From Puniceicoccaceae bacterium (GTDB taxonomy: Bacteria > Verrucomicrobiota > Verrucomicrobiia > Opitutales > Coraliomargaritaceae), in NCBI GenBank assembly GCA_017854655.1, contig JAFMHF010000002.1, positions 1-64,000 of the forward strand: DNA of 64,000 nt. The letters are read 5' to 3'. The translations under genes were made by a program, and so were the position numbers. How positions within the stretch are numbered: position 1 is the stretch's first letter; the number at the start of each line of letters is the position of its first letter. This document shows, piece after piece, positions 13,533 through 56,445 of the stretch. The notes beneath the pieces were generated by a model, which did not search any database, was not told the DNA's origin, and worked only from the letters and a program-made list of their open reading frames with translations.

Positions 13533-13643
13533 GGTGGGTGAGGAGTGGGGGAGATGGAGAGAGCGCAGGAGTGCTGCAGTTAGTAAATCTATCTCTGAAG
13601 TGTTGTCTGGGCAAGTCGTCCGAGCTTTTGCTTCCTTCTGTGG

Positions 13644-13663
13644 AAGCGACACTCTTGTCGCTT
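13644..13663. repeat. GCGACACTCTTGTCGC hairpin, single copy
   Basis: AAGCGACACTCTTGTCGCTT is a hairpin of the same family as the three tandem units that follow and the pair at 56.3-56.4 kb. Confidence 0.8.
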
Positions 13664-13670
13664 TAGTTTC

Positions 13671-13815
13671 CGCAACCTTGCACGATGCAAAGCGACAGGA
13701 GTGTCGCTTCTACGTTTCCGCAACCTTGCACGATGCAAAGCGACAGGAGTGTCGCTTCTACGTTTCTGGCAACCTTGCACGATGCAAAGCGACAGGAGTG
13801 TCGCTTCTACGTTTC
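13671..13815. repeat. Three tandem 48-49-bp REP-like units
   Basis: The units start at 13671, 13719 and 13767. The first two are identical and the third has a one-base-longer junction. Each contains the hairpin AGCGACAGGAGTGTCGCT followed by CTAC; read on the minus strand this is GTAG followed by the hairpin, the layout of REP sequences. The rest of 13533-14008 holds nothing else I can identify except the gyrA terminator. Confidence 0.9.
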
Positions 13816-54534: not shown

Positions 54535-54622
54535 GTAGGCGACTTGCTTTAGCTGGTCGCCCGGATGGTTGATTTGGTCGCGTTTGTTGCAGTCGATCCG
54601 CCAGCTAAAGCAAGCGGACTAC
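54535..54622. repeat. Inverted REP pair upstream of the RAYT gene (88 bp)
   Basis: Each half reads GTAG, a 5-bp stem, the loop TTGCTTTAGCTG and the stem complement: GCGAC/GTCGC on the plus strand and TCCGC/GCGGA on the minus strand. The stem bases differ between the halves while the loop is identical. The element begins two bases after the stop of the TolB-like gene. Confidence 0.92.
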
Positions 54623-54721
54623 GACATAGAACTTGCTCGGGGTGAAGTGGCATGTTTAATTGTCGTTGTGTTTGATGGTGCTCAGTCTGTCTTTCCTCCG
54701 ATTGATTGCTGGTCGGGCACC

Positions 54722-55306
54722 ATGCGCGGCGTCTATTACGATCAACTTCCGCATTGGGTTGTTGATCGCGGTTATTATTCACTGATGTTTCGCTGCCGAG
54801 GTAGTTTACCCGATGCGGTGCTGTTACGCCTTTCTGAAATCAATCAGAATCAACAGGGGATTGTCACGCGCGATCAACAGGCATTAGAGCAACAGCGTCG
54901 CTCTTTCAAAATACTAGAAGCGTATTTGGATCGGTCGCAGGGCTTTGCTCCGTTCCATGACGATGCTGTGCGAGGCGCTTTTCATGATTATTTGCAGGAG
55001 TATGATGTGGGAGGACTCAGGTTTCAGCACTGGGTAATTATGCCGAATCACCTGCATTTGTTAACTGCCCCGCTGAATTGTGAGCGTATTGAATGTTTCA
55101 AGAGTGCGATGACGCAGTTCAAATTGCGTTCGACCCAAATGTTGAATCGAACACTTGGACGTCGGGGGGGATTTTGGCAGTCGCATCAATATGATCGTTG
55201 GGTGCGTAATGAACGTGAGTATCATCGGTGGCAGAAGTATTTTAAGGACAACCCAGTGAAGGCTGGCTTGTGTCAGCAGCCAGAGTGTTGGGTAGGTTTG
55301 CAGTAG
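54722..55306 (+). CDS. REP-associated tyrosine transposase (RAYT, Y1/HUH type)
   Basis: The 194-aa protein shows the RAYT layout: YYDQLPHWVVDRGYYSLMFRCRGSLP at the start, the HUH motif in HWVIMPNHLHLL near residue 110 and the C-terminal EYHRWQKYFKDNPVKAGL that carries candidate catalytic tyrosines. ATG 54722 is chosen because the ORF-track start would place the upstream REP arm inside the protein. RAYTs cut single-stranded REP hairpins next to GTAG. The TAG stop is part of a GTAG of a shortened REP (GTAGGCGACTGGTCG) that starts the downstream repeats. The gene looks intact. Confidence 0.9.
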   Translation: MRGVYYDQLPHWVVDRGYYSLMFRCRGSLPDAVLLRLSEINQNQQGIVTRDQQALEQQRRSFKILEAYLDRSQGFAPFHDDAVRGAFHDYLQEYDVGGLRFQHWVIMPNHLHLLTAPLNCERIECFKSAMTQFKLRSTQMLNRTLGRRGGFWQSHQYDRWVRNEREYHRWQKYFKDNPVKAGLCQQPECWVGLQ

Positions 55307-55316
55307 GCGACTGGTC

Positions 55317-55404
55317 GTAGGCGCCTTGCTTTAGCTGGTCGCTCAGATGGTTGATAGGGTCGCGATGGTTGCAGTTGGGCAGCCAGCTAAAGCAAGCTGC
55401 CTAC
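55317..55404. repeat. Inverted REP pair downstream of the RAYT gene (88 bp)
   Basis: The same 88-bp layout as at 54535. The left half has the stem GCGCC/GTCGC (imperfect) and the right half, on the minus strand, GCAGC/GCTGC (perfect), both around the loop TTGCTTTAGCTG and each led by GTAG. Confidence 0.92.
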
Positions 55405-56298: not shown

Positions 56299-56445
56299 GT
56301 AGAAGCGACACTCTTGTCGCTTTTGCTGTTCAGTATTGTCCTCCTGGCATAAAGCCAGTCGCTAAGAAGAGTTGTAGCGAGCGGGTTTATCCCGCGATTT
56401 TCAGATACGTTTCAAAGTAAGCGACAAGAGTGTCGCTTCCACTAC
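56299..56445. repeat. Composite hairpin element: GCGACACTC pair enclosing a TCGCTA/TAGCGA element
   Basis: GTAG followed by AAGCGACACTCTTGTCGCTT (56303-56322) faces the inverted hairpin AAGCGACAAGAGTGTCGCTT (56419-56438) followed by CTAC. Between them lies the second copy of the 39.5-kb repeat (56347-56402) with its stems TCGCTA/TAGCGA and CGGG/CCCG. The right CTAC (56442-56445) contains the purT stop codon. Confidence 0.85.

Follow-up and report, generated by a model that had tools for sequence, protein, structure and literature searches.

A Y1/HUH transposase gene enclosed by repeated GTAG-headed hairpins raises the question of what the enzyme and the repeats are to one another, and we addressed it in the whole 64,000-nucleotide stretch of DNA analysed here, which is referred to as the window. 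We found that the locus is very probably an ordinary REPtron, that is, a chromosomal single-copy RAYT gene whose cognate REPs are grouped into two 88-bp REPINs/BIME units with GTAG facing outward, and whose product presumably mobilises the paired units. This reading draws on the anatomy of the locus, the preservation of the residues for catalysis and for reading GTAG, hairpin covariation, the paired intergenic copies in congeners and the cognate hairpins at homologous RAYTs, all of which were observed here.

The features of the locus are listed in Table 1. An earlier note on this DNA described four GTAG hairpins in two 88-bp inverted pairs around a Y1/HUH gene, and both the sequence and the coordinates were found to be correct. 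Pair A (54535-54622) and pair B (55317-55404) are 88 bp each and were identical to each other at 75 of 88 positions, and are therefore copies of one unit. The rayt gene is thus flanked by inverted palindromes composed of GT(A/G)G and a hairpin, and the repeated 88-bp unit, in which a conserved spacer separates two REPs of opposite orientation, has the arrangement of a REPIN or BIME. At no more than one mismatch, TTGCTTTAGCTG occurred four times in the window compared with 0.43 occurrences expected, a count that was reached in none of 100 shuffles.

Table 1. Positions of the rayt gene and the REP sequences in the window.
Feature	Positions	Strand	Description
REP copy 1	54535..54560	+	GTAG GCGAC TTGCTTTAGCTG GTCGC; R1 model 44.6 bits
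REP copy 2	54597..54622	-	GTAG TCCGC..GCGGA, inverted; closes 88-bp pair A
rayt (tnpA-REP) gene	54668..55306	+	212 aa from GTG 54668, putative start
REP remnant	55303..55316	+	GTAGGCGAC-TGGTC, without the 10-nt hairpin tip TTGCTTTAGC; read directly
REP copy 3	55317..55342	+	GTAG GCGCC..GTCGC, one stem mismatch
REP copy 4	55379..55404	-	GTAG GCAGC..GCTGC, inverted; closes 88-bp pair B

The open reading frame between the two hairpin pairs is an intact Y1/HUH frame with HLH, the catalytic Tyr and NPVKAG. Its product has 194-212 aa depending on the choice of start codon, and 245 aa from the first TTG; the alternative starts are ATG 54722 and TTG 54569. The GTG start was favoured because the N-terminus of the 49-50% identical homologue in genome G041 begins MALANNIPTNCWSGT and because the window frame has CWSGT upstream of ATG 54722. 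The TAG stop codon (55304-55306) falls inside the GTAG of the REP remnant, a fifth and tip-deleted repeat that the earlier note does not mention, and stop codons supplied by REP termini are already on record (PMC3733652).

The window RAYT scored 67.9 bits with the NCBIfam model NF047646 (REP_Tyr_transpos), below the NCBI cut-off of 80, and a Pfam search of the protein at 0.001 found nothing. The fold was settled by a sequence profile of nine relatives from the window RAYT clade, which matched the E. coli TnpA-REP structure 4er8 (E=1.6e-11); next in the ranking came solved chains that carry a transposase label, 2xm3 and 2f4f among them. As evident from alignment A2, H128 and H130 (codons from 55049) and Y191 (codon 55238) are invariant, giving the HUH motif and the single tyrosine of the Y1 type, and the NP(L/V)(R/K)xG motif follows the tyrosine as YFKDNPVKAG. 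W170, Q171, D176, R180 and Y191 are spaced exactly as W94, Q95, residue 100, R104 and Y115 of the E. coli protein (E. coli numbering: PMC6006769, PMC8266576), in which Q95, residue 100 and R104 have been implicated in GTAG reading (PMC6006769, PMC8266576). The window RAYT has a longer N-terminal half than E. coli TnpA-REP. A threonine in the N-terminal region that was reported to be 100% conserved among RAYTs (PMC2817692) is Met40 in the window protein, whereas it is Thr in all eight aligned homologues; the sister RAYT of G041 keeps it. This threonine is a marker residue of RAYTs rather than their definition, and its change to methionine may have impaired the window enzyme. Upon comparison with the subclass motif table for RAYTs (PMC6006769), the window motifs (NHLH, WQ and YFKDNP) did not match those of the E. 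coli type, subclass 2.2 (DHLH, WE and YIHYNP). None of the published subclass signatures fits exactly; the nearest is subclass 2.4 (NH[IFV]H, WQ and YIxNNP, median 194 aa), which is close to the window protein with its 194-212 aa, but inexact.

We also examined the fold of the repeats. The earlier note had taken the 12 bases between the stem halves for a constant loop, and folding and covariation revealed instead a bulged stem with a covarying pair of its own: the hairpin is built from five pairs that vary, then a constant T-G, a single T-T mismatch, an inner stem of 2 bp and finally TTTA. Single-strand DNA folding gave ....((((((.((....)).)))))) in three of the five hairpins folded, while REP copy 3 folded with a bulge and a competing fold was present for REP copy 4. 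That the loop never changes was true of the four window copies and untrue of the family, in which the inner pair alternates between GC..GC (22 of 64 copies) and CC..GG (41 of 64). The one mixed inner-stem match, in G064, is also without a stem and looks like a chance match; the search pattern allowed all mixtures. Since that pattern prescribed T-T, T-G and TTTA, the constancy of these letters is partly by construction, and the covariance model recovered copies that vary at these positions.

The proposal that covariation reveals a selected fold was borne out over 33 distinct copies. In these, 96.6% of cells were paired compared with 71.7% after shuffling, and the covariation score was 0.672 against a shuffled mean of 0.241, a score reached in 0 of 500 shuffles; structures slid along the alignment scored at most 0.098. 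Double changes were found at six of the eight pairs. When the 3' stem halves were shuffled among copies, 173 Watson-Crick pairs remained, compared with 295 of 320 observed. The architecture of the hairpin is that of the bulged REPs described for the E. coli type (PMC8266576, PMC6006769). With these REPs (group 2 / subclass 2.2) and with GTAG-3 of Di Nocera 2013 (PMC3733652) it shares the GTAG at the stem foot, a mismatch-interrupted stem and a short GC-flanked inner hairpin, and differs from them in its 5+1 bp outer stem, single T-T, 2-bp inner stem, fixed TTTA and length of 26 nt.

To the earlier expectation of further copies in the genome, the covariance model returned five in the genome that carries the window, together with 75 in congener G007 and 28 in congener G010. 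G036, from the same family, had 30 GTAT-headed or related copies, the remaining 53 of the 57 genomes searched had 0-3 copies each, and none of 387 further genomes, drawn from across the phylum, contained the strict hairpin pattern. A search of the genome contigs for related loci revealed one weak, unrelated locus. Dispersal was weak in the own genome, with one dispersed copy (contig C112), and strong in the congeners, where G007 contained at least 23 outward-GTAG pairs of 85-89 bp. The chance that the hairpins stand beside a transposase gene by coincidence is virtually nil: no point in its support was found, and it was refuted by the covariation and by 0 control matches compared with 5, 51 and 10 real ones in G000, G007 and G010, respectively.

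The predicted intergenic bias proved to be strong, as 61 of the 62 copies examined were outside open reading frames in loci that are 83% coding, and the exception was at a contig end. The copies were found in convergent (29), unidirectional (30) and divergent (1) contexts; being intergenic and nearly absent from divergent contexts, they follow the published REP pattern. They resemble REPINs/BIMEs (Bertels and Rainey 2011, PMC3116915) in their two inverted REPs, outward GTAG, length of about 88 bp, conserved spacer and intergenic dispersal. In contrast to REPINs/BIMEs, the family has tens of copies rather than hundreds, and most of them are in genomes without a cognate RAYT. The idea that copies would be confined to genomes encoding this RAYT therefore failed: no close RAYT is present in the copy-rich G007 and G010 (best identity 31% and 35%, respectively, with different flanking repeats), and no RAYT flanked by the window hairpin was found in G007 or in the two-contig assembly of G010. 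Within the genus, REP copy number does not follow the presence of the RAYT. Some E. coli strains are known to have lost REPtrons while retaining the REPs (PMC3733652).

These copy-rich genomes count against the REPtron reading, as do Met40, the score below the NCBI cut-off, the lack of a Pfam hit and the presence of just five copies in the RAYT-bearing genome, which gives little sign of recent activity there. Several of the same observations would suit a reading in which the hairpins are now mainly RNA elements, acting in mRNA 3'-end protection or attenuation of transcription, with the covariation reflecting RNA folding and the RAYT being an inactive passenger. The copies follow genes and hardly ever lie between divergent genes, the hairpins are still there in G007 and G010, where no close RAYT accompanies them, and the RAYT genome combines a low copy number with the T-to-M change. 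However, pairs that face head-out at a constant distance, their GTAG heads and their occurrence at dozens of sites are the marks of a mobilised element. Few of the stem pairs that vary are G-T, a ground on which DNA and RNA folding are inseparable. We consider the RNA-element explanation rather unlikely.

The element sits between a tolB-like gene and a menB-like gene of the enoyl-CoA hydratase/isomerase family, and all eleven congeners have the same tolB-menB gene pair with no RAYT between. A gene that is missing at its site in other members of the genus and is bounded on both sides by similar REP pairs might be an active IS200/IS605-like insertion sequence moving itself, yet such an element should be present in several near-identical copies, whereas rayt is a single-copy gene in its own genome and the nearest protein elsewhere has 49% identity. 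Moreover, a right flank like AAGCTGCCTACGTTG is found in several congeners, with 17 identical nt in G007, which is more in keeping with a site occupied long ago and then vacated than with a recent hop. A self-moving insertion sequence is thus very improbable. At the site itself, the 17 nt of G007 are those of the half-REP on the right together with its flank (GCAAGCTGCCTACGTTG), AGCTGCCTGC is present in G001 and G003, and G010 has another GTAG...CTAC unit, which suggests, weakly and from sequence comparison, that tolB-menB has long been in use as a REP site. Deletion of the window RAYT from this site in G007 was also considered and rejected; the 17-nt match is suggestive, but related sequence is present in G001, G003 and others. 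The tolB-menB gap of seven congeners (G001, G003, G004, G005, G006, G008 and G011) is occupied by another block, which is repeat-like and about 150 bp long (GTTGTCACAATCGGTTGTTGAAGG...CGCAATGACA).

The genome is rich in REPtrons: its RAYT-like genes or fragments number at least five. It also has 21 pattern matches to another REP family, GTAGAAGCGACACTCTTGTCGCTT, which is of the perfect palindrome type, is unrelated to the first and adjoins a RAYT-like gene on contig C93, likely its cognate. The window holds six near-matches to GTAGAAGCGACACTCTTGTCGCTT; an array of four is found at 13640-13810 and a pair lies just past the menB-like gene, at 56299-56322 (+) and 56419-56442 (-). Additionally, the window's only copy of GTAGCGAGCGGGTTTATCCCGCGA, at 56374-56397, resembles the Pseudomonas putida-type REP TGTGGGAGCGGGTTTACCCGCGAA (PMC2817692).

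To place the window RAYT among its relatives, a tree was used, which grouped it with the RAYT of G041 (support 99/97), near those of G013, G036 and G063. Elsewhere in the order, neighbouring RAYT groups are flanked by cognate hairpins of their own. G041 has a near-identical hairpin, mostly GTA(A/T)-GCGGC-TTGCTTYAGCTG, of which some copies directly flank its RAYT; the full form is GTAA/GTAT-GCGGC-TTGCTTCAGCTG-GCCGC, and a looser pattern found 14 copies. The flanking hairpin of the G003/G020 RAYT group is GTAGCGTGCAGCTTTAGCAAACG, and those of G036 and G063 have mainly perfect or near-perfect stems. A scan for perfect-stem GTAG hairpins missed most cognate repeats of the relatives, which were found by flank inspection, an energy-based scan and the identity of upstream and downstream GTAG-led 28-mers. 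Two further observations concern individual members. In G023, the RAYT at C22:355554-356078 (L035) has a stop exactly at the conserved W codon beside intact cognate REPs and is a candidate pseudogene or recoding case. The RAYT-like proteins of L167, L168 and L170 have SNHAH or ANHVH replacing PNHxH, lack an NP following the Tyr, are flanked by perfect-palindrome GTAG repeats, and seem to be a separate subgroup.

Of the 47 RAYTs whose motif could be read (loci L025-L049, L106 and L151-L176), a GTAG-led repeat was present on both sides of 20 of the 36 with Q at the position of Q171 and of none of the 11 without it (Fisher p=0.001, a statistic that ignores kinship, with about four independent changes). 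In the latter, the conserved W is followed by M, A, P or S. This association agrees with the subclass-level conservation of Q95 that has been published (PMC6006769) and goes one step further, with the residue after the conserved W as a possible foot-reading residue. The window and G041 RAYTs are the cleanest case and would be a natural switch pair, Q171 going with GTAG and Met with GTAA/GTAT on an otherwise almost identical hairpin. That this residue (Q95/Q171) decides the tetranucleotide foot is a tentative proposal from sequence, and one we would hold with more doubt than belief.

Overall, the claim of a RAYT with cognate GTAG REPs was supported. The locus shares with the RAYT/TnpA-REP REPtrons (Nunvar 2010, PMC2817692; Quentin 2018, PMC6006769; Corneloup 2021, PMC8266576) the Y1 HUH enzyme, NPVKAG, the single gene copy, the inverted GTAG hairpins that flank the gene and recur elsewhere, and the conserved W/Q/D/R positions that contact GTAG. 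The suggestion of a distinct, possibly undescribed family held only in part: no description of the exact window hairpin sequence was found in the literature, but RAYT-flanking REPs of many phyla and the bulged REPs of E. coli-type RAYTs have already been published (PMC3733652, PMC6006769, PMC8266576). So have GTAG REPs of Opitutus terrae, a member of the Verrucomicrobia (GTAG-17, -19 and -20; PMC3733652), which are probably from the same phylum and are likened here by description only; a search of the window's own assembly for the 16S EUB338 region returned no match. The novelty of the window hairpin lies in its sequence and not in its kind.

In the REPtron reading, each REP would fold when the region is single-stranded, as the lagging-strand template or during transcription, into GTAG followed by the 5-bp stem, T-G pair, T-T mismatch, 2-bp stem and TTTA loop. 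The RAYT would bind the GTAG foot and the irregular stem and cleave nearby via Tyr191, with the metal held by H128/H130, and strand transfer would copy or move the paired unit to other intergenic sites. Binding, cleavage and mobilisation by the window RAYT are predicted by analogy with the E. coli, Stenotrophomonas and Marinomonas enzymes.

Gamma-proteobacteria have been the setting of nearly all RAYT/REP experiments, and the locus adds a clean, covariation-backed REP/RAYT pair that is probably from outside that group. G007, with 75 copies and no close RAYT, offers a case for what keeps REPs once the enzyme is gone. The window and G041 RAYTs form a matched pair suited to probing how the GTAG foot is read apart from the hairpin; if the proposed role of the residue after the tryptophan is true, foot specificity would be changeable by one residue while hairpin recognition is kept.
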